NCBI GenBank assembly: GCA_009773055.1
Contig: WOUW01000005.1
Location: 1 to 46,397, forward strand
Length of the DNA: 46,397 nt
DNA from: Paracoccaceae bacterium
Lineage (GTDB): Bacteria; Pseudomonadota; Alphaproteobacteria; Rhodobacterales; Rhodobacteraceae
Direction of reading: 5' to 3'
Shown here: one piece after another, positions 506 to 46,397 of the stretch
How positions within the stretch are numbered: position 1 is the stretch's first letter
How the letters are laid out: each line of letters starts with the position of its first letter
Notes under the pieces: model-generated
What the model was told of the DNA's origin: nothing
Database searches by the model: none
What the model saw: only the letters and a program-made list of their open reading frames with translations
Made by a program: the position numbers and the translations under genes

Positions 506-669
506 GCGGCGACATCGAGCCAATCGGCTCTTCCGTCAGAAGTGGTTATTCAAGGGTCACCCCACTACGCGAGGTCGAACACCTCAGCGCAGATACGCGC
601 AAAATCCCAAGCAACGCATAGTCCTTTCGGAAGTTCGGGAGCGACATTAATGCGTACGTTGCAAACGAC

Positions 670-1302
670 CTAAAGCAGTCCGCGTGCCCTACTCATGATG
701 ACCGCATGCGTCCGGTTGCGCGCCCCCAACTTCCGGCAGATGGCGCGGACATGCATCTTCACGGTTGACTCGCTCAGCTGCAGCCGGAAGGCAATCTCTT
801 TGTTGGCCAAGCCCTCGCCAAGATGGCGCAAGACCGACGATTCCATCTGAGTCAAGCTTGGCTCCTGGGCTTGCGTGGCGTCGGCCTGCCCAAATGCGGG
901 GATGCCGGGAATGAATGTTTGGCCCGCAGCCACAAGCCGAATCGCACTTGTCAAAGCACGCAGAGGCAGCGTCTTCGGAATGAAACCACGAGCGCCTAAT
1001 TCAACCGCCTTTTCGACGAAGCCTGCCGACACAGATCCCGAGAAAAGCACAACTCCGCCGTCACTGTTGGCCTGAACTACCTTTGCCACGTCGCCGATCC
1101 CGTTGAGTCCAGGTAGGACAACATCAAGAAGAACGACGTCGAAGCCACGAGCCTCTTCGATCCTTGCGATTCCGCTCGCAAGATCGCTGGACACAGTAAC
1201 GGCGAAACCGCCATCCGCCGAGAGGAAAGTCTTCACCAGTTCCACTATCAGACTGTGATCGTCGATCAGCAGAACCGTGATCACCGCAGGTTCAGTATAC
1301 AC
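670..1302 (-). CDS. NarL/LuxR-type response regulator 1
   Basis: This 210-residue cytoplasmic protein has an N-terminal receiver (about residues 8-125) and a C-terminal LuxR helix-turn-helix (about 145-208). The acidic pair is D14-D15, the phospho-acceptor is D60 in the block VVLLDVVLPG, and the conserved lysine is K110 in GFIPK. The output domain carries the NKEIAFRLQLSESTVKMHVR signature, so it should bind DNA when phosphorylated. The start is a GTG without a clear Shine-Dalgarno sequence; a GTG 18 bases further in is an alternative. It is divergent from the sulfite-oxidase-fold/hybrid-kinase operon, which contains a terminal Hpt domain and is the likely phosphate source. Target genes are unknown; the exopolysaccharide genes nearby are candidates by position only. 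Confidence 0.9.
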   Translation of the reverse strand: MYTEPAVITVLLIDDHSLIVELVKTFLSADGGFAVTVSSDLASGIARIEEARGFDVVLLDVVLPGLNGIGDVAKVVQANSDGGVVLFSGSVSAGFVEKAVELGARGFIPKTLPLRALTSAIRLVAAGQTFIPGIPAFGQADATQAQEPSLTQMESSVLRHLGEGLANKEIAFRLQLSESTVKMHVRAICRKLGARNRTHAVIMSRARGLL

Positions 1303-1524
1303 TTAGCCGTCTAGCCTGTCATTTGAGATCAATGAGGCACGCTCCGCCACACGGGGTAACCCTGTAAGTCTACTTTGCATGCGGTCGGAGCACTTTTAGA
1401 GGTGCGCCAGCCAAGATGGGCATGACTAAGCCCGCCATGCATTGCGGGTATTATCTAAAGATAGCATGCTCAGTCCAGATGGTCGATGTATCTTTCCGGG
1501 CGGACGCAACTTTAGGATAACCTC
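1303..1524. promoter_or_regulatory. divergent promoter region of the signalling block
   Basis: This 222-base intergenic region lies between the divergent regulator and kinase-operon genes. It holds a 12-base palindrome, TATCT-AA-AGATA, at 1452-1463, about 60 bases before the plus-strand start. AGGA, 8 bases before the ATG at 1525, is a plausible ribosome-binding site. A similar TATCTTTC word occurs at 1490-1498. I cannot define -35/-10 boxes with confidence. The palindrome may be an operator for one of the two LuxR-type regulators. Confidence 0.35.
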
Positions 1525-2031
1525 ATGCATCTATTGATTGTTTTGCCGCGTCTTGCGCTAGGCCTTGCCGCTGTCGTCTGTTTCGCCACTCCGCCTTCCA
1601 TCGCCGGGGCGCAGGACCCCTCGGAAGTCCTTCTTGAGCTTGTGCCGAAGGAAGGCGCCAATCTCGAACTGACACGAGCGGAGTTGGAGGCTCTGCCACA
1701 GGTCGAGTTCGAGACCACGACGGGATGGACCGAAGGATCGGCACGATACAGCGGGCCACGGTTAAGCGAGGTGCTGGCCCTTGCGGGCCTTTCAGAGCAA
1801 GCTGTTGAGGCCACTGCCGCGAATGACTACAGCGTGATCATGGATCGCGACCTCATCGGCCCCATTTATCCGATCATCGCCCTCAGAATCAACGGCAAGC
1901 CCTTTGGCAAGCGCGAACTCGGCCCCCTGTGGGTCATCTACCCGTATGACCTGTTGCCTGAATATCGATCAGAGAGAGTTTTTGCGGCTAGCATCTGGCA
2001 ACTCGTCAGCCTCGCACACGTCAACAACTGA
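1525..2031 (+). CDS. secreted sulfite-oxidase-fold protein, likely sensory partner
   Basis: This 168-residue protein has a cleavable signal peptide (about residues 1-28, ending IAGAQ), so it should act in the periplasm. The mature part resembles small Oxidored_molyb (sulfite-oxidase fold) domain proteins: LTRAELEALPQVEFETTTGW, then YSGPRLSEVL, then GPLWVIYPYD. In true molybdenum enzymes of this fold a cysteine near the GW motif ligates the metal. Here that position reads TTTGW and no cysteine remains in the mature protein. I infer it binds no classical Mo cofactor, or acts as a ligand-binding module. It sits 9 bases before the hybrid kinase gene, in the same direction, suggesting that it feeds the kinase's periplasmic domain. 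The fold assignment is fairly good; the role is inferred. Confidence 0.75.
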   Translation: MHLLIVLPRLALGLAAVVCFATPPSIAGAQDPSEVLLELVPKEGANLELTRAELEALPQVEFETTTGWTEGSARYSGPRLSEVLALAGLSEQAVEATAANDYSVIMDRDLIGPIYPIIALRINGKPFGKRELGPLWVIYPYDLLPEYRSERVFAASIWQLVSLAHVNN

Positions 2032-2040
2032 ACTTTCAAG

Positions 2041-4665
2041 ATGTACGAACTTTCCAGCCAGGCTGGGTTGAACCGCTACGAGGCGCACACTCGCATTTTG
2101 CTGGCAGCAGTAGTCGTCATTGTCTTGATCTTGCTGCCCGTGGTCTTGATTCGTGCGGTCCAGTTGAGCGACGAGTTGCAAGAAGGCCGCCTGGAGGTAA
2201 CAGATGACCAGACGTGGGTCGTGGCGCAGCTTGAGGTAGAGTATCTCAAGTTGGCCGTGGCTATTGGTGAACTTCGGTCCATGACAGCAGGGTCCATTTC
2301 GGAAGCCGATCTGCAGGAGCGGATGCCGAATATCCTGAATCGCTTCGATATCTTCTATTCGCGGGTCGGAACGGTCGCCAGCAAGATCCGGTCGTGGTCA
2401 GAGTCTTCGCACCAATGGAATAAGAGCCTTCGGATTCTGGATCGGGTCATTTACCGGAGGAACCAGCTCGCCATAATCCTCGACAGGTCGGCAACTCCGG
2501 GTGGAAAGCTGTGGCTGGACGCACTTGAGATGAATATGGCCGATTTCGCCGAGGACGTGCGTGAACTGAGTGTTACAACTTTGGCGAACTTGTCGGACCA
2601 GGCAACCGAACGGCGGTTGCTCTACATCAGCAAGCAAAGAACGCTTCTAATCCAAAGCGTTACATTGGTCGTCGTGATGGCCGTAATCTGTATGTTGGCT
2701 CTGATCCTTTTCCGTCAGGTTGGTGTCAGAGCTGCAGCGGAACGCAGAGTTAGCGAAAATCTATCCCGCGTTTTCGATTCCAAACCCGATGCGATCCTGC
2801 TCACCGACGCGAACCGACGCATCCTTTGGATGAACAAGGCGGCAGCGGAACTTCTGGACGTTGACCTCACCGAGGAGGCGCAAGCTCATCCCTTAGACTT
2901 CTTTTTTCCAGGGATCCAGCGGCTGATCCACCAAGGCAAAACACATCCCCTGGATCGCAGTGATCAGTCCAGCACGTTTCGTGACATCGTGCGCCAGACC
3001 GGCGGAGCAATCGTTGCGGTCGAAGTGACCCGGGTCCAGCTAATGGAAGAAAACGGAAAGAATACAAACGCTCTCTTCGTGCGGAACATATCGGAAACCC
3101 AGCGCGCCTTGCGGGCGCTCCGCCGGGAACGACGCCTTGCCGAAGGCGAGGCAGAGCGCTACCAGCGTTTTCTCGCTACTATGAGCCACGAAATACGCTC
3201 TCCCCTTCACGCGATCATGGCCTCTCTCGACCTTGCGCGACAAAGGCCAGGAGCTACGGCGCTGGCGGATCTCCATGATATCGCAATGGATGCGGCGCGG
3301 ATCGTACTCCGTGAAGCCGACGCGGTGTTGGAGAACGGTCGAGCCGAGCATGAAATGAACGTAGCCGAACGGGGCGTGTTTTCGGCCAGCGAGATCCTTA
3401 CCAATCTTGTCGAGATGAACGGTCCGGCCGCACATAGCGCCGGCACCAAACTTGCCGTCGAGATCGAACCAGAAGCGGACGTGCCCATCCACGGGCTGCG
3501 TGCCTGCTACTGGCACGCAGCTGCAAATTTGCTTAGCAATGCTGTCAAGTTCACCTTGAACGGCAAAATCACCGTGCGCCTTTCCCGCGGGGCAGATGCA
3601 CTTCGGGTCGAGGTCGCAGATACCGGCCCCGGCATCGCCCCAGACCTGCTGGACGTAATCTTTCGTGACCACTACACCCACAATCCAGTGACCGTAACAA
3701 CAGGGAAGGGGGCCGGACTTGGCCTGGGTCTGTTCGTCAAGGCGGTCCGGGCGATGGACGGGCGGTATGGAGTAGAAAGCGTTGTAGGCAAGGGCAGCAC
3801 CTTCTGGTTCACCTTTCCGGCGCGGTCCGCCACACTACCAAAATCAGCCGAACACCATGATCTTCCTGGTTTCAGTCACCTGCGATCGGACCTGAGGGTT
3901 CTGGTGGTAGATGACTCGCATGTGAACCGTTCACTGATCCATCAAATGTTTTCCATGCTTGGACTACATGCCGATCTGGCTGAATCCGGCACCGAGGCGG
4001 TGAGCCGCGCTGGGGAGTTTGGCTATGACCTGATTCTCATGGACCTGTCCATGCCGCACATGGATGGGTACACAGCAGCTGCCAAAATCCGGCGCGAAGG
4101 CGCGTCAAACAGCGCAATGATCGTCGCTCTGACAGCCAACGTGCTTGCGCGACAAGAGGTCGAAAAACAAGGGAGCTTTGATGGCTTTTTGCTCAAGCCT
4201 CTGCGGTTTGATGAACTGCGCACCTGGCTTGCAGGTGGCCTTCACCAGCAACCTTTGCCTCAAGGTGGTGTACCGAGTAGCATTGATCGAGCGGTCGCTC
4301 AGGACCTTCTGGACACGCTCCCTTTATCGACCCTGGAAACGCTTCTGAAGGCCTTTCTCGACGAGCTCGAGGACCTCGTAGCAAGTCTGGACTCCTACAG
4401 CAGGGATGCGGATTTGTCGGGCAAATTTCATAAGGTTGCTAGCTCGGCGAGCATGCTAGGAGCGGCACGCCTCCGCGACCTCTCCCTGGAAGGGGAGGCG
4501 GCTGCACAGAAGACAGGTTACAGACTCAAGCCCACCTTCCGTACAGCCTTTCTACAGGCAATCTCCGAGACCTCTCATGACTGGGCATTGCTTCTGAAGA
4601 GCGACTCGCAAGATATGCCTTTTTATGTCGAAAGATCATTGAGATACGCCTCCGCGCCCCATTAG
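2041..4665 (+). CDS. hybrid sensor histidine kinase with receiver and Hpt
   Basis: This 874-residue inner-membrane kinase has a membrane segment at about residues 18-40, a periplasmic loop of about 165 residues, and a second membrane segment near 205-228. A PAS-like region (about 235-350) and a coiled stretch precede the HisKA domain, with phospho-acceptor H383 in MSHEIRSPLH. The HATPase domain has its N-box at ANLLSNAVKFT, then ADTGPGIAP and GKGAGLGLGLF. A receiver follows with D624-D625, acceptor D668 in LILMDLSMP and K719. The tail is an Hpt-like domain with H797 in KFHKVASSASMLGA. This layout is a complete internal phosphorelay of the BarA/ArcB kind, and its final output must be a separate regulator. 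The two NarL-type regulators at 670-1302 and 7092-7796 are the only candidates here. There is no strong ribosome-binding site, so translation may be coupled to the preceding gene. Confidence 0.92.
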   Translation: MYELSSQAGLNRYEAHTRILLAAVVVIVLILLPVVLIRAVQLSDELQEGRLEVTDDQTWVVAQLEVEYLKLAVAIGELRSMTAGSISEADLQERMPNILNRFDIFYSRVGTVASKIRSWSESSHQWNKSLRILDRVIYRRNQLAIILDRSATPGGKLWLDALEMNMADFAEDVRELSVTTLANLSDQATERRLLYISKQRTLLIQSVTLVVVMAVICMLALILFRQVGVRAAAERRVSENLSRVFDSKPDAILLTDANRRILWMNKAAAELLDVDLTEEAQAHPLDFFFPGIQRLIHQGKTHPLDRSDQSSTFRDIVRQTGGAIVAVEVTRVQLMEENGKNTNALFVRNISETQRALRALRRERRLAEGEAERYQRFLATMSHEIRSPLHAIMASLDLARQRPGATALADLHDIAMDAARIVLREADAVLENGRAEHEMNVAERGVFSASEILTNLVEMNGPAAHSAGTKLAVEIEPEADVPIHGLRACYWHAAANLLSNAVKFTLNGKITVRLSRGADALRVEVADTGPGIAPDLLDVIFRDHYTHNPVTVTTGKGAGLGLGLFVKAVRAMDGRYGVESVVGKGSTFWFTFPARSATLPKSAEHHDLPGFSHLRSDLRVLVVDDSHVNRSLIHQMFSMLGLHADLAESGTEAVSRAGEFGYDLILMDLSMPHMDGYTAAAKIRREGASNSAMIVALTANVLARQEVEKQGSFDGFLLKPLRFDELRTWLAGGLHQQPLPQGGVPSSIDRAVAQDLLDTLPLSTLETLLKAFLDELEDLVASLDSYSRDADLSGKFHKVASSASMLGAARLRDLSLEGEAAAQKTGYRLKPTFRTAFLQAISETSHDWALLLKSDSQDMPFYVERSLRYASAPH

Positions 4666-4796
4666 CCTCCTAGGAGCACCTGCTTAACTCTCGACACGTG
4701 TTGACCATTCCCTTTGTCCATTAGATAGATCGCATGATCCTGCGGGCGCATTTAGAAAGGTAGTGTAGATTTTCTCACTAGCTTTCGGTGAAAGAT

Positions 4797-4958
4797 ATGT
4801 TGCCTCTTCACGCTCCGCACCAACTTTCCAAGCCGTCAGATAAGGAAAGCCCCAGGAAAACCGACGAGCTTCCAGGAGGCTGGTGGATCATTCCTTCTGC
4901 TATCTTTGGCCTCGCTGGATGGATCGGCATCTTCTACGCCTTGGGGCTACTATGGTGA
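4797..4958 (+). CDS. small membrane protein, 53 residues
   Basis: This short ATG frame ends at TGA 4956-4958. The N-terminal half is polar and charged (SKPSDKESPRKTDELP). The C-terminal half is a single hydrophobic segment rich in W, G and I (WWIIPSAIFGLAGWIGIFYA) ending at LLW. The predicted form is a single-span protein with a cytoplasmic N-terminus. The stop overlaps the start of the next gene in ATGGTGA, the usual sign of translational coupling, which is the main reason to believe it is real. No family is recognised. It lies 131 bases after the hybrid kinase, same strand, and may be an accessory of that signalling operon. Confidence 0.5.
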   Translation: MLPLHAPHQLSKPSDKESPRKTDELPGGWWIIPSAIFGLAGWIGIFYALGLLW

Positions 4959-5320
4959 GTGGACAAGAGAGCAACCTTGCCGGCCGCAACTGCTTTGCGG
5001 GAACGCTTTTGTGCGTCAGTGACGCAGTATTACCAACATTCGATGCATACGACTGCCCTGCGATCGTATTGGGAGGCGACGCAGATTTAGCAAGGGAAAT
5101 GCGCGCAGTGCTGCAGTCGCTGGGTTTCGACGTGCTGGCCGGAGCTAGCCATCTTGGTGTCGACGATATGCCAGTGTTCATTGTGCTGGGCGACTTCCTT
5201 GACCAGAAAGAGAACCGCCTGCAGCTACAGAGGATGAGCCTGCCCTGGCCATCCGCTCCCGTCATATCGATTTCCAATCCCGCCGACGCTGCGGGGAAGT
5301 TGATCCCACTTCTTTCTTGA
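4952..5320 (+). CDS. receiver-like protein A, no clear phospho-site
   Basis: This 122-residue protein starts at ATG 4952, inside the end of the small membrane protein gene (7-base overlap). The region from AIVLGGDADLAREMRAVL through LGFDVLAG looks like the first beta strand and helix of a CheY-type receiver. It is followed by a strand PVFIVLGDF and a last strand APVISISNP. The usual DD pair, the D-x-x-x-P acceptor loop and the terminal lysine are not present in standard form, so phosphorylation is doubtful. The longer open frame back to 4883 would overlap the membrane protein and lacks support. It may be an atypical receiver acting as a protein-binding module in the kinase operon. The fold call is an inference. 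Confidence 0.55.
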   Translation: MVSGQESNLAGRNCFAGTLLCVSDAVLPTFDAYDCPAIVLGGDADLAREMRAVLQSLGFDVLAGASHLGVDDMPVFIVLGDFLDQKENRLQLQRMSLPWPSAPVISISNPADAAGKLIPLLS

Positions 5321-5341
5321 TTCGGCAGGAGCAAAGCCAAG

Positions 5342-5848
5342 TTGACCCTCACCCGTTCCATAGCTCCAGTACCTGAGGTGGCGTTGTTTCGCCGATCCGA
5401 ATTTCGTTCCGCGGCGAATATGCCGAATGGCCATACAGGCGAAGCATGCTCGCTCAGAGGTCTGGCGGTACTTCACTTAGGGTTTTCTCGGGACGACGGT
5501 GTCCTTCTAAGCGAAACGATGCACAATCTCGGTGCTCGGAATGTTGCTCGGTCGGAGCACGTCTATCCCCTCGGCCTCGGCAAACCCGGGGCCCTACGAT
5601 ACGACGGCATTGTCGTAAACATTGACCGCTATGCAGATGTGGAGATGGGTGTAGACCGATTGATGCGCTTCCGCCGAGCGTGCCCGTCCTGCTTCGTCGT
5701 GTTGGCAACCGCGGACGTGGCGGCGGATGACTTCGGCCACCATCGTCGGGCGATTTGTGACAGCACCTTGAGGCTTCCACTGACCGCTTCGCGCCTGACC
5801 GAAGCGCTTGAAGCTGCTTTACTGAACCACCAAAACAACAAGGGTTGA
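5342..5848 (+). CDS. receiver-like protein B, degenerate
   Basis: This 168-residue protein starts at TTG 5342, chosen because AGGAG (5327-5331) lies 10 bases upstream; an internal ATG at 5420 is the alternative. The segment ALRYDGIVVNIDRYADVEMGVDRLMRFRRACPSCFVVLATADV reads like strand 3, helix 3 and strand 4 of a receiver. D in NIDRY sits near the acceptor site, and TLRLPLTASRLTEALEAAL resembles the last helix, with R where the conserved lysine should be. It is therefore probably a pseudo-receiver. It follows receiver-like protein A by 21 bases on the same strand, so the two form a pair. No named family is recognised. Confidence 0.55.
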   Translation: MTLTRSIAPVPEVALFRRSEFRSAANMPNGHTGEACSLRGLAVLHLGFSRDDGVLLSETMHNLGARNVARSEHVYPLGLGKPGALRYDGIVVNIDRYADVEMGVDRLMRFRRACPSCFVVLATADVAADDFGHHRRAICDSTLRLPLTASRLTEALEAALLNHQNNKG

Positions 5849-6214
5849 GCACCTGCTTGGCATTACAGCTTGCGGTCTCTACACGACAGTGATCACTGCT
5901 CTGGATTCGAATGATCAAGTGCGGTTCTTTTGCGACTATTCCGAACGACCAGGACAAACTATATGCGGCGGCAGTGACCTTCCCACGCCTTGCCCATGCA
6001 TCTTATCCAGTTTGTGCCAGCCTCTGGCAAAACCTCATTCGCCCCCGAACTCTGGGCCGTCCGCAGCCAGAGTTTTCCGGATCGCTCTGGGCGCCAGCTG
6101 GTAGCGCGCATGTTTTCGTCAGTATCATCGAGACTATATTGCCGATCGCGCGGTGTGGCCTTTGATCTGCTCACCGGTTTGTCCTCGTTCAGAAGTTAGT
6201 TCTGTACAGGGTTT
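5849..6214. other. intergenic, no gene recognised
   Basis: Several short frames cross this stretch, but none shows coding-like composition, a ribosome-binding site or recognisable homology. It separates the signalling operon from the IS3 remnant and is probably decayed sequence or the outer end of that element. Confidence 0.4.
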
Positions 6215-6905
6215 GGTCCTTTTCTGACCGGTTGAGGAACTCCCGCCGCATGGGCGGAGGAGGCTCGTGTGCGGGCCGGGAAGGTTGTAGTCGTGACGCC
6301 ATGCCGCGATCAAGTGGCGGTTACGGCGCAGACTGGAGAATAGGTGCTCGTTTAGGCACTCGTCCCGCAGGCGGCCGTTGAAGCTCTCGACGAAGCCGTT
6401 CTACATGGGTTTGCCGGGCTGGACTTAGTGCCATGCGACCTTCCGGTCCTGCTGCCACGTCAGGATCGCATTCGGGGTTAGCTACGTGCCATTGTCACTG
6501 ACCACCATGCAGGGCCAGCCCAGCAATTCGGCAACCCGGTCCAGTTCCCGCGCCACACGACCCGAGATCGATGTGTCCAAGAGGCTAGCCAGGCACTCCC
6601 GGCTGAAGTCGTCGATGATGCACAGGACCCGGAACCGCCGACCCCGGGCCAGGCTGTCAGATACGAAGTCCAACGACCAACGCTGGTTCGATCCCTGCAG
6701 GATCGGCATGGTTCGCGGGTACCGAGTGCCCGCTTGCGACCGCCACGCTTGCGTACTGTCAACCGTTCTTCCCGGTAGATGCGGTAGAGCTTCTTCCAGT
6801 TCACTTTCCCGCCCTTCCGCTCGAGCAGAATGTGCAGGCGGCGGTAGCCATACCTCATGCGTGTTTCACGGATCTCCTGGATCCGCTTCGCCACTTCAGC
6901 CTGTC
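6215..6905 (-). pseudogene. IS3-family transposase (orfB), broken
   Basis: Read on the minus strand, the pieces follow the order of an IS3-family OrfB. First comes RYGYRRLHILLERKGGKVNW with KLYRIYREE and VRKRGGRKRALGTR. A frameshift follows, then NQRWSLDFVSDSL, RGRRFRVLCIIDDFSRECLA and VVSDNGT, which carry the first two acidic catalytic positions. After another shift comes NGFVESFNGRLRDECLNEHL, with the catalytic E, and HTSLLRP. Stop codons replace residues in the WHYxxPGKPMQNG block (WH-stop near 6424 and PM-stop near 6401). The orfA part is absent. The element is inactive and lies between the signalling operon and the second regulator. Confidence 0.85.
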
Positions 6906-7091: not shown

Positions 7092-7796
7092 TCAAATCAG
7101 ATGGAGATCACGCGCCCTAAGCGCGGCGCTTGTGCGGTTCGGGACGCCGAGTTTCTTACAAATTGACCGCATGTGCATCTTAACTCGGATCTCTGTGGAG
7201 CCGCACCTCCGCGCAATCTCCTTGTTGGGCAGGCCATCAACAACGAGGCGCAGTACTTCCGCTTCGGCAGAACTCAATGAGGACGCGGGCGAGGTCGCCC
7301 GATTGCCTTCTTGCACGATTAATCCGTCACCACTTAGCAAAGACGCCGGCAGATATGTCTCACCCATTGCAACGAAATTCAGAGCACTTAGCAAGGCCGA
7401 CAAACGCATGCTCTTCGGGATATAACCCTTCGCTCCCTTTGCCAGCGCCTGCAGGACAATATCCCGTGGGGCGTTGCCCGAAAACAAAATGACAGCCATC
7501 ACACCCTGCGTTGTGACCACTTTCTCGATAGATTTTATGCCCTCCATGTCTGGCATGTTAAGGTCGAGCATCAGAATATCGATCGGACCATCATCGCGAA
7601 CAACAGACAAGGCCGCATTCAGCGAGCCAGCAACGAGGACTTCGTGGTTTGAACTATTCCTGATAGTTTCAGCAATGGCGTCACGAACAAGCGAGTGATC
7701 GTCTGCGATGAGAATTTTGAGCTTGCCGACAGCCCCTATCCCCCCTGAGGGCTTTGCCTCGGTATCCGATCGCTCCTTACCACCCAATCCTGTCAT
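7092..7796 (-). CDS. NarL/LuxR-type response regulator 2
   Basis: This 234-residue protein has a 25-residue extension, a receiver (about 26-145) and a LuxR-type helix-turn-helix (about 165-230). Key residues are D32-D33, acceptor D78 in ILMLDLNMPDMEG and K128 in GYIPKSM. The output helix reads NKEIARRCGSTEIRVKMHMR, close in style to regulator 1, and both carry an SG pair at the switch position (LFSGN here, LFSGS there). The two are probably paralogues. The start ATG has AGGGA 6 bases upstream. No kinase gene is adjacent, so it is an orphan that could receive phosphate from the Hpt of the hybrid kinase. Twin AGTCGACT palindromes lie in its upstream region. Confidence 0.9.
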   Translation of the reverse strand: MTGLGGKERSDTEAKPSGGIGAVGKLKILIADDHSLVRDAIAETIRNSSNHEVLVAGSLNAALSVVRDDGPIDILMLDLNMPDMEGIKSIEKVVTTQGVMAVILFSGNAPRDIVLQALAKGAKGYIPKSMRLSALLSALNFVAMGETYLPASLLSGDGLIVQEGNRATSPASSLSSAEAEVLRLVVDGLPNKEIARRCGSTEIRVKMHMRSICKKLGVPNRTSAALRARDLHLI

Positions 7797-20866: not shown

Positions 20867-22240
20867 ATGACAAGCTCCTCCGATCTGCCTCCATACTTCG
20901 GTATCGATCCCGAAGTTGCCGCCAGCCGACTGGCTGAGCCTATTGATACCACGCGATTCGCCAAAGCCGCAGCCTTCGCATCCCGTGGACGCGACGACCT
21001 GGCGCGACGTGGCTACGCGCCGGATGGCAAGAAACGCTTGCGTAAGTTTTCCACTTGGGAGGTTTGCCGGTACCTGATCCCCGTTAACTCCGCGCATCTC
21101 CGTCGGGTGCTGAAGCAGAATCCTGATCTGCCGCAAGGCACTGGTGAAAGCGGCGCAAAGTGGTTCACTTTGGAAGAGGTTTTGGCGCTTCGCGAACACT
21201 TCGCTGTGGAGGGAGCCGGCTGGCGGGAGTACAAGGCTTGGCGGCCAGAGGGCCTTCCAGCGAAGATCGTCGCTGTGGCGAACTTCAAGGGCGGAGTTGG
21301 CAAGACCTCGACCGCCGCGCATCTTGCAATGTCGGCCGCGCTTGACGGTTATCGCGTTCTGGTGATCGACCTGGACAGTCAAGGGTCGATGACATCGATC
21401 ATGGGCGGCAAGGTGACCGATGAATGGCAGACAGTTTTCCCCCTCCTCGCCCGCGACTACGCCCGCCACGTTCAGTCAGAAAACGCAGTGCGTACCGCTG
21501 CTGGACAGGCAGAGCTCCCGCTTGACGAAACACTGACCGAAGCATTGGAGGTTTCGCCGCGAAACCTTATACAGTCGACGCACTGGCCGAACATCGACCT
21601 GATCGGAGCGCAGTTGAATCTGTACTGGGCAGAATTTCAGGTACCGGTCTGGCGAATGCAGATGCGCAACTGGGCACTGTGGGATGCCTTGGGCAGTGCG
21701 TTGACCGAAACCGGCATCGTGAACGACTATGACATCATCCTGCTGGATACGCCGCCGGCGCTTGGCTACCTCACGATCAATGCGCTCTCGGCAGCCGACA
21801 TCCTGCTCGTCCCGCTCGGAGCATCATTCCTCGAATTCGACTCCACGGGGCGGTTCTTCGACATGATCTACTCCACCTTCGCCTCGATTGAGGAGGGTGA
21901 AAATCGAACACGGCGTGCGCAGGGGCTGCCCGAGATGCGCTTCGAATGGGATGCGGTGCGTGCCCTGATCACCCGTTTCGATGCCGCCCAGCAGACAGAC
22001 CTTGCCAACGTAATCCAGGCCTATTTCGGCGACTTCATGACCACGTATCGGCAGGAACTGACAGCAATGGTCGGTCAGGCCGGTGAGCAGGTGTCCGGCA
22101 TCTACGAGACGGATTACCGCGACTTCAACCGTGACACCTACGTCCGGGGCCGCGAAACTTTTGACCGGACCTGGGCTGAGGTAAAACAGGTCATTCTTGG
22201 CGCCTGGTGGCGCGACCAGAAAATGGCTGAGAAAGGCTGA
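20867..22240 (+). CDS. parA: ParA-type partition ATPase
   Basis: This 457-residue Walker-type ATPase segregates plasmid copies together with ParB. An N-terminal DNA-binding region of about 100 residues includes KFSTWEVCRYLIPVNSAHLR. It precedes the ATPase domain with the deviant Walker A FKGGVGKTSTAAHLA, Walker A' VLVIDLDSQGS and Walker B DIILLDTPPALG. The long N-terminus is typical of type Ia ParA proteins that also repress their own operon. ATG 20867, with AGGA upstream, is preferred over the ATG at 20813. parB follows after 2 bases. Divergent from the rep gene. Confidence 0.93.
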   Translation: MTSSSDLPPYFGIDPEVAASRLAEPIDTTRFAKAAAFASRGRDDLARRGYAPDGKKRLRKFSTWEVCRYLIPVNSAHLRRVLKQNPDLPQGTGESGAKWFTLEEVLALREHFAVEGAGWREYKAWRPEGLPAKIVAVANFKGGVGKTSTAAHLAMSAALDGYRVLVIDLDSQGSMTSIMGGKVTDEWQTVFPLLARDYARHVQSENAVRTAAGQAELPLDETLTEALEVSPRNLIQSTHWPNIDLIGAQLNLYWAEFQVPVWRMQMRNWALWDALGSALTETGIVNDYDIILLDTPPALGYLTINALSAADILLVPLGASFLEFDSTGRFFDMIYSTFASIEEGENRTRRAQGLPEMRFEWDAVRALITRFDAAQQTDLANVIQAYFGDFMTTYRQELTAMVGQAGEQVSGIYETDYRDFNRDTYVRGRETFDRTWAEVKQVILGAWWRDQKMAEKG

Positions 22241-22242
22241 CA

Positions 22243-23331
22243 ATGGCCAAGCGCAAGACACTCGTCGCTCCCTCTTCCGAGGATCTGTCCCGGCTTGAGG
22301 ATGAGTTTCGCCGCGAAACCTCCGCACGCCCCCCGCTTGCGGCCCCCATCGCTCATGTTGCTGCCGAGGCCGCGGGCCAGATCGATCCCCGACCTCTGGC
22401 TGACCGGGCTGCCGAGGCGCGTGACCGGGCCGATGCCGCACGTCTGCGCCAGGCCGAGGCCGCTGGTCTGGTGATCCACGAAATTCCGCTGGACCAGATC
22501 GACGCCGATGCGCTGGTCCGGGACCGCATGTCACTGGCCAGCGACGAGTTGATAGAGCTTCAAAGCTCGATCGCGTCGCACGGATTGCGGCTGCCAGTCG
22601 AAGTCTTCGCCTTGGCCGAGCCGGGGCAGGGGGGGTGCCGCTACGGTCTTCTGTCGGGCTATCGCCGCCTGAGGGCTGTGCAGAATCTGCGTCAGCTTTC
22701 AGGGCAGGAGAAGTATACCACAATCAAGGCCGTTATACGGGACCCTTCCACACTCGGCGGCCCATTTGCCGCGATGGTCGAGGAAAACGAAATCCGGTCC
22801 AACCTCTCGCATTTCGAGCGCGGCAGGATCGCCGTGATCGCCGCGCAGCAGGGGGTCTTCACCAATGTCGAGGCGGCGGTCGACGCATTGTTTGCACAGG
22901 CGTCCAAGGCCAAGCGATCCAAGATCCGGTCCTTCGCCGCGATCTTCGAGGACCTGGGTGACATGCTGATCTTCCCGCAAGCACTCCGCGAAAAAGATGG
23001 CCTTCGTTTGGCTGCTGCTCTGCGCGACGGTCACCAGTCGGTCATACGTGAGGGTCTTGCTGACATCGCGCCGGAAACTTATGCGGAAGAGCTGGATCGC
23101 ATCGAGGCTGTCCTTGCGCGACTGGAGCCATCTGTCCCGCGTCCCGACCGAGGTGGCAGGCCTTCCACTAAGCCGGTGCAGGGCCGCAGATCTGAGCTGG
23201 CGACCGGGGTGCGTCTGATCTCGGGTCAGGACGGCGAAGCATGGTACATTCGAATCGAGGGCAACAGGGTGGACGCAAGGATGGTAGAGGATCTTCTCCG
23301 TCAGTTGGAAGCCTGGCTCGGGCCAGCTTGA
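22243..23331 (+). CDS. parB: ParB-type partition protein
   Basis: This 362-residue protein binds the plasmid centromere and stimulates ParA. The ParB/Spo0J N-terminal domain spans about 80-190, with IPLDQIDADALVRDR, ELQSSIASHGLRLPVEV, GLLSGYRRLRAVQNL and MVEENEIRSNLSHFERG. A helix-turn-helix region follows (about 190-290), and the C-terminus has a conserved WYIRIEGNRVDARMVEDLL tail. The N-terminal 60 residues are alanine-rich and charged. It is cotranscribed with parA. A short hairpin-prone stretch between its end and the convergent recombinase gene (23332-23378) may end transcription. Confidence 0.92.
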   Translation: MAKRKTLVAPSSEDLSRLEDEFRRETSARPPLAAPIAHVAAEAAGQIDPRPLADRAAEARDRADAARLRQAEAAGLVIHEIPLDQIDADALVRDRMSLASDELIELQSSIASHGLRLPVEVFALAEPGQGGCRYGLLSGYRRLRAVQNLRQLSGQEKYTTIKAVIRDPSTLGGPFAAMVEENEIRSNLSHFERGRIAVIAAQQGVFTNVEAAVDALFAQASKAKRSKIRSFAAIFEDLGDMLIFPQALREKDGLRLAAALRDGHQSVIREGLADIAPETYAEELDRIEAVLARLEPSVPRPDRGGRPSTKPVQGRRSELATGVRLISGQDGEAWYIRIEGNRVDARMVEDLLRQLEAWLGPA

Positions 23332-23378
23332 CTATTGCCGTCCCCGCTATCGCTCCAGGCTTTACGGTAGAGCGAGGG

Positions 23379-24476
23379 TCACAGCCCCGCCGCCTTGGTC
23401 AGGTTGACCCGGAACCTGTCCCTGCGCCGCTGGTAGCGGCGCGTCATCTCGGCCGAGGCGTGGCCAAGCTGTTTCTGGACATAGCGTTCTTCGGCCTCGG
23501 CACTGCTGGCCAGTCCGGCGCGCAAGGAGTGCCCGGAGAAAAGGCGCAGCCGCTCGGCTTCCGGCAGGTCGGGCCGCAGGCCCGCCTCGCAGGCACAAAT
23601 CTTGATGAGCCGGGCAACGTGCTTGTCGGACAGCCGTTCGCTCGTGGCCTTGAGCCCGTTGCGGCTGACGGCGACGAAGATCGGGCCGAAGTCAATCCTG
23701 GCGTAGTGGAGCCACTGCGTCAGGGCATGGACTGGGCAAGTCTCGTCGGCGGAGCCGCGTGAGATTTCCACCTCACGCCAGCCGGTTTTGCCGCGCAGCG
23801 TTATCAGGACACCGCCCTCCAGCACCTCAACCCAGCCGCAGCTGTCTGGCGTATCATCCTTGCCGTGATCGAGGCTGACGATTTCGGAACGGCGCAGGCC
23901 GCCAGCAAAGCCGATCAGTAGGATCGCGCGATCTCGCAGGCCACGCAGGTCGTGGGGCAAGGTTGCCAGCATGTCACGCAGGTCCTCGGACAGGATCGCC
24001 TCCTTCTGCCTGGGGGGCCGCCCATGCTTGCGCCGGATCCCGGCAAGCACAGTCGCGATGTGGCGGTCCTTGCGGTCCATGCGCTGGCCGCGCTGCGCAA
24101 ATTTCCAAGCCAGACCCGAGAGGCGGCGCTCGATGGACGTGACGGAGAGCGCTGGGGCCTGGCCGACTGGCGCTGCCAGATCGGCGATGTAAAGCCCGAT
24201 CAGCTGGGGCGACGGGGGCAGGGGGTCCGCGCCGCGCATCCGGCACCAACGTGCGAAGTGGGCCCAGTCCTTGGCATAGGCTTTGAGGGTGTTTTCAGAG
24301 GCAGCGGCGCGGGCATAGTTGCGCGCGGTTTCCGCCAGTCTGTCGAGCGCGCCTGAACGTGCGATGTGTGAGGGCAGTGCGAGGGCATCACCGTCACACC
24401 CCAAGTCCTCGTCCTGCTCGTTGGGATTGGATCGCTCTGGCGGGTCGATGGGTGATTTCTGGTGCGTTTCTGCCAT
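23379..24476 (-). CDS. tyrosine recombinase / integrase (XerC-like)
   Basis: This 365-residue site-specific recombinase has an N-terminal SAM-like core-binding domain (SENTLKAYAKDWAHFARWC) and a C-terminal catalytic domain. Visible catalytic residues are R in GGLRRSEIVSL, K in LRGKTGWREVE, HxxR in GHSLRAGLA, the second H in KQLGHASAEMTRRYQ and a nearby tyrosine as nucleophile. An ATG 12 bases upstream (24488) is an alternative start. Linked to parAB on the backbone, it probably resolves plasmid multimers rather than driving an integron or phage. A dif-like inverted repeat lies just upstream of its start. Confidence 0.9.
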   Translation of the reverse strand: MAETHQKSPIDPPERSNPNEQDEDLGCDGDALALPSHIARSGALDRLAETARNYARAAASENTLKAYAKDWAHFARWCRMRGADPLPPSPQLIGLYIADLAAPVGQAPALSVTSIERRLSGLAWKFAQRGQRMDRKDRHIATVLAGIRRKHGRPPRQKEAILSEDLRDMLATLPHDLRGLRDRAILLIGFAGGLRRSEIVSLDHGKDDTPDSCGWVEVLEGGVLITLRGKTGWREVEISRGSADETCPVHALTQWLHYARIDFGPIFVAVSRNGLKATSERLSDKHVARLIKICACEAGLRPDLPEAERLRLFSGHSLRAGLASSAEAEERYVQKQLGHASAEMTRRYQRRRDRFRVNLTKAAGL

Positions 24477-45533: not shown

Positions 45534-46397
45534 ATGGCAAAAGCAGCTCAGAAGGTCACCCTGTGCCCGTCGCGGGACATCCCCTTCGACAAGCTCGTGC
45601 TGAGCCAGTCCAACGTGCGGCGCATCAAGGCCGGCGTCTCTGTCGAGGAACTGGCCGAGGACATCGCGCGGCGCGGCCTGCTGCAGGGCTTGAACGTCCG
45701 GCCCGTGCTTGATGCCGACGGGGTCGAAACCGGCACGTTCGAGATCCCGGCCGGCGGCCGCCGCTTCCAGGCGCTATCGCTCCTGGTGAAGCAGAAGCGT
45801 TTGGCCAAGACCGCGCCGATCCCCTGCATCGTGCGGGATGCCGCCTCCAAGATTTTGGCCGAGGACGACTCGCTGGCCGAGAACATGCAGCGTGTGGCTT
45901 TGCATCCGCTGGACCAGTTCCGTGCGTTCCAGGCCCTGCGCGAAAAGGGTCAGGGCGAGGAAGCGATCGCAGCGGCCTTCTTCGTGACGCCGCAGATCGT
46001 GAAGCAGCGCCTGAAACTCGCCTCCGTGGCCCCTGCCCTGCTCGAGGTTTATGCCGAGGACGGCATGACGCTCGAACAGCTGATGGCCTTCACCGTGAAC
46101 CCGGATCATGCGCGTCAGGCGCAGGTCTGGGATGCGGTGAAGAACTCCTGGAACAAGGAGCCCTACGCCATACGGCGCATGCTCACGGAGACCTCGGTCC
46201 GGGCGTCTGATCGCCGCGCGGTGTTCGTCGGTGTCGATGCCTATGAGGCGGCGGGAGGTGTCGTGCTGCGCGACCTCTTCCAGGGTGACGACGGAGGCTG
46301 GCTCGAGGACCCTGCCCTGCTCGATCGGCTGGTCTCCGAGAAGCTCCAGGCCGAAGCCGAGGCGCTGGCCTCGGATGGCTGGAAGTGGATCGAGGTG
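45534..46397 (+). CDS. ParB/RepB/Spo0J-family protein, 5' part (runs off window)
   Basis: 288 codons are open to the window edge. The N-terminal ParB nuclease-like domain shows PFDKLVLSQSNVRRIKAGVS, VEELAEDIARRGLLQGLNVR, AGGRRFQALSLLV and SLAENMQRVALHPLDQFRAF. The helix-turn-helix follows with EAIAAAFFVTPQIVKQRLKL. Large ParB-like proteins of this kind occur on alphaproteobacterial plasmids, often ahead of antirestriction or conjugative genes; they differ from the true partition ParB at 22243. It may be a transcription regulator or a second partition factor. It differs strongly from that ParB and is not a duplicate. Total length cannot be seen. Confidence 0.88.
   Translation, partial: MAKAAQKVTLCPSRDIPFDKLVLSQSNVRRIKAGVSVEELAEDIARRGLLQGLNVRPVLDADGVETGTFEIPAGGRRFQALSLLVKQKRLAKTAPIPCIVRDAASKILAEDDSLAENMQRVALHPLDQFRAFQALREKGQGEEAIAAAFFVTPQIVKQRLKLASVAPALLEVYAEDGMTLEQLMAFTVNPDHARQAQVWDAVKNSWNKEPYAIRRMLTETSVRASDRRAVFVGVDAYEAAGGVVLRDLFQGDDGGWLEDPALLDRLVSEKLQAEAEALASDGWKWIEV

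Follow-up and report, generated by a model that had tools for sequence, protein, structure and literature searches.

The 46,397-nucleotide stretch of contig WOUW01000005.1 from a Paracoccaceae bacterium considered here (the window) contains, near its start, adjacent genes encoding a periplasmic protein and a hybrid histidine kinase that, as judged by their sequences, are a member of the already named PruR-DTB class (DcpA-TorS-BaeS type; Rucker and others, PMC13259868). At a probability of roughly 0.7, the favored reading is that this pair forms the core of a PruR-DTB pterin-responsive phosphorelay, with output through NarL-type response regulators and damping by a pseudo-receiver encoded nearby. 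The initial annotation of this region had recognized no named system of such composition; according to the review text, however, pairs of PruR and a kinase are termed PruR-DTB, and the absence from the periplasmic protein of the cysteine that ligates the molybdenum cofactor (Moco) is a hallmark of the family (PMC13259868). At the same time, the earlier proposal is judged to have been right in positing a phosphorelay that senses redox state or a ligand and that includes a periplasmic co-sensor, an Hpt domain, and receiver-like extras. The features considered are listed in Table 1.

Table 1. Features of the window discussed in the text (TM, transmembrane; HTH, helix-turn-helix; aa, amino acids).
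Feature	Position	Strand	Basis
NarL-type response regulator, receiver and GerE HTH domains, divergent from pruR	670..1302	-	Pfam Response_reg 1.2e-18, GerE 7e-18
Divergent intergenic region, presumed promoters	1303..1524	.	gene layout
PruR-type protein, predicted to bind pterin, 168 aa	1525..2031	+	family profile vs. solved structures
DTB-type hybrid histidine kinase (predicted), 874 aa	2041..4665	+	Pfam, hydropathy
WX7E motif, W59...E67 of the kinase periplasmic domain	2215..2241	+	motif named in PMC13259868
H797, presumed phosphate-accepting His in the Hpt domain at the C-terminus	4429..4431	+	Pfam Hpt, column conservation
53-residue single-TM protein (ATG start; 56 aa from GTG at 4788), motif PGGWWIIP	4797..4958	+	family profile
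122-aa protein, weakly receiver-like, overlapping the preceding gene by 7 bases	4952..5320	+	AlphaFold, hhalign
168-aa predicted pseudo-receiver, starting from TTG (or possibly from ATG at 5420)	5342..5848	+	AlphaFold, Foldseek
Second NarL-type response regulator	7092..7796	-	Pfam; relative in locus L079 adjoins first regulator

The periplasmic protein belongs to the PruR family

When a profile built from 19 members of the periplasmic protein family was compared with solved structures, pterin-binding proteins in the PDB were matched with E-values of 1.4e-48 (7kos), 9e-43 (7rkb), and 3e-34 (7kom), with 7kp2 also being matched and values ranging to 4e-34, whereas the same profile matched sulfite oxidases at 0.0017 or worse. 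As described in the review text, PruR is a periplasmic protein of some 170 residues that binds pterin via Tyr104 and Trp160, with Asn102 also being discussed, and that presents Trp instead of the Moco-ligating Cys, with the site likely being unable to hold Moco (PMC13259868). The corresponding residues of the window protein, N100, Y102, and W158, present the same spacing as do N102, Y104, and W160 in that description and are invariant in 19/19 family sequences. Because of the profile match at 1e-48 and the retention of these N, Y, and W residues, the product of 1525-2031 is classed by family membership as a PruR-type pterin-binding protein, with pterin binding itself being presumed on the basis of what is described for Agrobacterium tumefaciens.

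Databases label relatives of this protein 'molybdopterin-dependent oxidoreductase', and the protein yields a weak Pfam Oxidored_molyb match that falls under the cut-off (9e-4). Nonetheless, given the length of only about 168 residues, the preference of the profile for pterin-binding proteins, and the likely inability of the PruR site to hold Moco (PMC13259868), it is very improbable that the gene encodes a catalytic molybdenum oxidoreductase sensing or processing a sulfur compound. Moreover, the only Cys, residue 19, lies within an N-terminal segment that hydropathy describes as hydrophobic and signal-like, with no Cys found thereafter. The TTTGW sequence and the missing metal-ligand Cys reported in the initial annotation were confirmed, with TTTGW corresponding to residues 64-68 and W68 being assigned, following PMC13259868, to the Moco-Cys position. 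A catalytic sulfite oxidase was rejected since the Moco-ligating Cys is absent and the profile favors pterin-binding proteins. As support for a pterin source, a match in this genome to the pteridine reductase model TIGR02685 was likewise rejected; the match is uninformative because it is present in 61/61 genomes and in 13/14 controls, in no case over the cut-off.

The PruR-kinase core recurs and the kinase retains a complete set of relay residues

In the window, the PruR and kinase genes are found on the same strand, 9 bases apart. In a scan of named genomes, the best 80 of at least 588 confirmed stretches were kept, and it is to these 80 loci that counts of loci refer; because only the best matches were kept, the set is biased toward near relatives. 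A kinase gene lies directly downstream of the PruR gene in 73 of the 80 loci, while two of the other seven loci end at a contig edge and five are without such a kinase. The initial annotation had named beforehand a lack of recurrence of the gene order as a refuting outcome; the PruR-kinase core recurs widely. Within the family, relatives of the periplasmic protein were detected in 170 of the 295 genomes searched, the window's own genome counted.

The kinase presents, in order, a TM segment, a presumed periplasmic domain, a second TM segment, and PAS, HisKA, HATPase, REC, and Hpt domains, with TMAO_torS being the best NCBIfam model (8e-58, under its cut-off). The window sequence was aligned with those from the 73 loci in which a kinase gene directly follows that of PruR, giving 74 sequences. 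The WX7E motif that the review text gives for the periplasmic domain of PruR-DTB kinases (PMC13259868) starts with a W found in 74/74 sequences, and Q is found at position +4 in 74/74; position +8 is E in 36, D in 37, and S in one. As such, strict WX7E holds in about half of the kinases, with an acidic residue at +8 in all but one. It is because the window kinase carries this motif of DTB kinases that the pair is assigned to PruR-DTB systems.

Among the presumed relay residues, H383 is conserved in 74/74 sequences, D668 in 70/70 ungapped sequences, and H797 in 66/69 ungapped sequences, the last having been correctly positioned as the Hpt His in the initial annotation. Pfam Hpt matches the kinase C-terminus with an E-value of 5.5e-4 (20.6 bits, cut-off 24.6). 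The sampled kinases thus appear to end in a conserved Hpt domain, and the conserved residues are consistent with a His-Asp-His relay.

NarL-type regulators accompany most loci

Both NarL-type regulators keep the usual acid pair (DD), acceptor Asp, and Lys, and transfer of phosphate from the Hpt domain to such a regulator would be the natural reading of this anatomy. A NarL-type regulator was found within the examined stretch in 63 of the 80 loci, being divergent and adjacent in 50. In terms of density, 69 copies were counted in 914 kb of PruR loci vs. one in the 282 kb covered by 20 comparison loci, a non-random set of stretches around pseudo-receiver relatives found elsewhere. The text of the review (PMC13259868) contains neither 'response regulator' nor 'phosphotransfer', and the NarL partner may be described in the 2024 primary paper.

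All six genes of the original finding were found where the initial annotation had placed them, although the five plus-strand genes said to follow the periplasmic protein include the periplasmic gene itself, with four following it. The divergent NarL-type regulator that was to complete the set is present; still, the gene set extends past the original coordinates of 670-5848 to the second NarL-type regulator. Relatives of all seven genes are present in L079, a comparison locus from another Rhodobacteraceae assembly in which the first protein is 74% identical, and all seven are also carried by L078, a near copy of the window (98.6% over 7.9 kb). Between the window and L079, the ratio of non-synonymous to synonymous substitution rates (dN/dS) is 0.08-0.26 for all seven genes, with the values for the 53-residue protein (dS 4.0) and the second NarL-type regulator (dS 2.9) being rough because dS is saturated. 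These genes are real, rather than chance open frames. A scan of 600-6300 for sigma-70 promoters and terminators gave results near chance, namely three promoters vs. 1.7 expected and four terminators vs. 5.5 expected.

In L079, the second NarL-type regulator adjoins the first (4090-4728 and 5151-5783 of that locus), while in the window and L078, it is found on the opposite side of the module. In both of the latter, inspection by eye revealed transposase-like fragments between the module and this regulator; those of the window, in minus-strand frames of positions 6200-6900, resemble an IS3-type transposase and may explain the relocation. All six loci with two NarL-type regulators carry accessory genes, as against 13 of the remaining 74 loci (Fisher p 9e-5, without kinship correction), with L078 and L079 being two of the six.

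The accessory genes include a predicted receiver fold with an altered phospho-site

None of the three genes of 4797-5848 matched Pfam or NCBIfam at up to an E-value of 1. The family of the last of these comprises 31 distinct sequences, including that of the window. Seven of 28 aligned members match Pfam Response_reg individually (best, 2.2e-6), although the window member does not, and the family profile matches receiver-type structures at 3e-5 to 9e-4, a designed protein being among them (6e-4). In the AlphaFold model of the window protein (predicted local distance difference test score, pLDDT, 83; predicted template modeling score 0.77), five strands and helices 1, 3, and 5 are seen in receiver order, without helices 2 and 4. 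Foldseek matched this model to receiver domains with a probability of 1.00, with 25 matches at E-values of 0.001 or below (best, 4dad, 2.3e-5). At the phospho-site, N93 replaces the acceptor Asp, G47-F48 the acid pair, and L145 the Lys; across the family, the acceptor column contains D in 16, N in nine, and S in two of 27 sequences. Model and profile together support the view of 5342-5848 as encoding a receiver fold with an altered phospho-site.

The initial annotation had described two receiver-like proteins. While the fold of the product of 5342-5848 is thus supported by AlphaFold, Foldseek, and the profile, that of the 122-aa protein is not. The latter family includes nine distinct sequences, that of the window among them, and the AlphaFold model, generated from seven sequences, has a pLDDT of 72. 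No PDB fold match under 1e-3 and no clear profile match were obtained, and comparison with the pseudo-receiver family by hhalign gave a weak probability of 57%. Given the poorer model, lack of a PDB fold match, and weak profile link, the 122-aa protein was rejected as a proven receiver. The 53-residue protein contains one hydrophobic segment, as judged by hydropathy, preceded by a GW-rich stretch in its family of 12 distinct sequences, including that of the window (profile E-values 8e-15 to 2e-10).

Linkage of the accessory genes to PruR loci

The pseudo-receiver is encoded in 17 of the 80 loci, the 53-residue protein in six, and the 122-aa family in four. The two pseudo-receivers of the initial annotation do not belong to the PruR-DTB core. 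Relative to PruR, the pseudo-receiver gene is found downstream on the plus and minus strands in five loci each, and upstream in five loci on the plus strand and two on the minus strand. Because linkage persists through these four arrangements, a functional tie to PruR loci is suggested. A quick tree was built from 73 kinase rows, with L078, a near copy of the window, being omitted. On this tree, the linkage requires eight changes, as compared to a mean of 15.5 upon shuffling, with so few changes being reached in none of 500 shuffles. A single 26-row part of the tree (branch support 90, below the tool's star) holds 15 of the 17 linked rows.

Both this clustering and the frequency of 17 in 80, far over a background roughly put at 48 places in 295 genomes (where the search was less sensitive, and with the 80 loci being the nearest PruR relatives), speak against the possible, if on balance unlikely, alternative that the PruR-DTB core stands but that the small genes of 4797-5848 are a separate neighboring cassette for another kinase or for none. 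What such a cassette would account for is the gap of 131 bp between the end of the kinase gene and the start of the 53-residue gene, and the observation that most pseudo-receiver relatives in 20 further loci have no kinase or NarL-type regulator among their near neighbors. It would also account for a trio on a Rhodobacter plasmid, described below, where no kinase is annotated, and for L159 (genome G233, at about 550-3816), one of these 20 loci, where relatives of the 122-aa protein and the pseudo-receiver adjoin a PAS hybrid kinase that is itself next to a GAF/PAS protein. As G233 yielded no PruR match, the 122-aa protein/pseudo-receiver pair may serve other kinases as well. In L063, a GAF/PAS hybrid kinase and a pseudo-receiver relative are separated by about 2.5 kb, and a NarL-type regulator lies between the two.

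Alternatively, the pseudo-receivers could be positive outputs rather than inhibitors, for example as partners of phosphorylated NarL-type regulators or of flagellar or polysaccharide machinery. This is considered unlikely. Receivers use helices 1 and 5 to dock on kinases and Hpt domains, and the predicted pseudo-receiver structure retains both helices; nor was an effector domain found in the protein. The best fold and profile neighbors do, nonetheless, include AmiR as well as the receiver-like domain found in CpaE-type pilus-assembly proteins, and in L098, L124, and L151 the pseudo-receiver gene adjoins that of a NarL-type regulator and not that of the kinase.

A number of observations weigh against the phosphorelay with a damping pseudo-receiver favored here. 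The sole other genome of the same genus in the family set has neither a PruR nor a pseudo-receiver match. Strict E at position +8 of the kinase motif is found in 36 of the 74 kinases, with D in 37. Since 17 of the 80 loci show no NarL-type regulator within the stretch examined, some of these stretches being short, the NarL partner is non-universal. An Asp still occupies the acceptor column in 16 of 27 pseudo-receiver family members. Part of the linkage is explained by shared descent, and the linked rows L091, L097, L123, and L124 are long branches that may group falsely. The pseudo-receiver family is also found away from PruR in mixed surroundings, as seen in the 20 loci opened. On plasmid pEJ01 of Rhodobacter xanthinilyticus (L066, 8031-9399), genes for the 53-residue protein, the 122-aa protein, and the pseudo-receiver appear in the same order as in the window with no annotated kinase in the 18 kb shown, although the gene table is incomplete and lists two short 'ATP-binding proteins'. 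The kinase cluster of the PruR loci has no member in that stretch. Finally, polysaccharide or chemotaxis genes are a minority of the 136 nearest neighbors addressed below.

The plasmid trio sits among insertion sequences, near type IV secretion genes. When plasmids were searched by tblastn, the pseudo-receiver of 5342-5848 matched one record while the 122-aa and 53-residue proteins matched none, although profiles did detect relatives of both in L066. No report of the accessory genes together with PruR was found in the open-licence literature.

Proposed mechanism

In the working model, reduced periplasmic pterin would bind PruR, and loaded PruR would dock on the periplasmic domain of the kinase, where the WX7E motif lies, thereby shifting the kinase/phosphatase balance, both steps being modeled on A. 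tumefaciens, as reviewed. Judging by the domain anatomy, phosphate would then pass from H383 to D668 to H797 and on to the NarL-type regulators of 670-1302 and 7092-7796, which would control transcription, conjecturally and most likely that of surface polysaccharide and motility genes. By analogy to Osp and FixT, it is conjectured that the pseudo-receiver docks on the kinase or its Hpt domain without accepting phosphate, so damping the relay. The 122-aa protein may likewise damp, and the 53-residue protein may, again as conjecture, tether both at the membrane. A bolder version, which is regarded as doubtful, would hold that a Rhodobacterales group of pterin sensors acquired receiver-like proteins blind to phosphate, together with a tiny membrane protein, to serve as a built-in brake; the pterin signal, a full His-Asp-His relay to two NarL-type regulators, and a decoy receiver would then make up a single adjustable switch between attached and motile states.

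Genomic surroundings and possible controlled genes

At 9.7-18.0 kb, the window contains polysaccharide genes, including those for Wzc/Wzz-type, low-molecular-weight phosphatase, Poly_export, and family-4 glycosyl transferase proteins, followed by ParA/ParB-type replicon genes. Because ParA-like, ParB-like, and integrase genes are present (20867-24476 and 45534-46397), the window is probably a piece of a plasmid or chromid. A sugar-nucleotide-type nucleotidyl transferase is encoded upstream in L079, and on a Ruegeria plasmid the module sits within a polysaccharide cluster.

In a survey of neighboring genes, 136 of 139 nearest neighbors picked were considered, three having been omitted for size. 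The 25 commonest of 183 neighbor families include Poly_export (four), WecG (three), Bac_transf (three), chemoreceptor signaling (three), ABC transporters (five), and GntR (four). Ten neighbors picked by hand include FliP, FliS, and a sigma factor containing regions 2 to 4, with three yielding no match. Recurrent neighbor clusters, named mostly from N-termini, comprise polysaccharide export in seven loci, the window included, and flagellar-type genes in five. The neighbors therefore lean toward surface and motility genes, short of proof, with the identity of the controlled genes being conjecture.

Relation to known systems

As in the PruR-DTB systems of the review text, the window presents a two-gene operon of PruR followed by a kinase whose periplasmic domain is of the DcpA type and carries the WX7E motif, and the PAS, HisKA, HATPase, and REC domains of the kinase are as in the Ruegeria pomeroyi example in the legend to Figure 5 of that review (PMC13259868). 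Kinases of the class are most like TorS or BaeS, and that of the window scores best against TorS among NCBIfam models, under the cut-off, with its DcpA-type domain being judged by the motif. By contrast, whereas the reviewed Ruegeria example ends in REC, the window adds a C-terminal Hpt domain, a divergent and a second NarL-type regulator, and three small genes (PMC13259868). As such, the conserved Hpt domain, the NarL arm that recurs among the loci, and the receiver-like and tiny membrane proteins present in a group of them go beyond what the review text describes.

With PruR-DcpA of A. tumefaciens, the window system shares a periplasmic pterin-binding co-sensor and a related periplasmic domain in the partner protein, although the predicted output of the window partner is a phosphorelay and that of DcpA is cyclic di-GMP synthesis or degradation. 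In systems of the TorT-TorS-TorR type, a periplasmic binding protein signals to a hybrid kinase with REC and Hpt domains, and TorR is an OmpR-type regulator; the window differs in sensor fold and ligand and in having NarL-type instead of OmpR-type regulators. Osp (Cereibacter) and FixT are described as non-phosphorylated receiver-like inhibitors of kinases (PMC9430884), and the window pseudo-receiver resembles them, by description, in being a small receiver-like protein without the usual phospho-site residues and tied to a kinase. Still, Osp acts on CckA and the osp gene is presumed to be monocistronic (PMC9430884), unlike the window pseudo-receiver gene, which lies within the locus of the sensor itself.

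PruR-like proteins were also encountered in other settings. Escherichia coli plasmid pFZ11 (L072, 5987-10084) and Klebsiella plasmid pF17KP0012-2 (L073, 4036-8078) encode a PruR-like protein that keeps the pterin-site N, Y, and W, together with a hybrid kinase that in neither case presents the WX7E pattern. Preceding the pair are a conserved protein and a regulator, the latter annotated either as an HTH protein or as a response regulator, and the set adjoins, and is divergent from, conjugation genes. A tblastn search of plasmid records with the window PruR protein returned 389 records, of which 67 were from Klebsiella, 56 from Escherichia, 28 from Salmonella, and 14 from Shigella. In Pseudosulfitobacter and Paracoccus plasmids of the same bacterial order (L070, L074, and L077), PruR-like genes are accompanied by shorter HAMP-type kinases, a different make-up.

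Significance

The review text that names PruR-DTB systems gives no account of their output (PMC13259868), and the present analysis points, via the conserved Hpt domain, to a NarL-type partner in loci of the Rhodobacteraceae type. Pterin signaling through such a phosphorelay would be directly testable in cultivable species. Should the pseudo-receiver indeed restrain the kinase, the mode of control exemplified by Osp and FixT would be widened to include a dedicated, locus-bound regulator.

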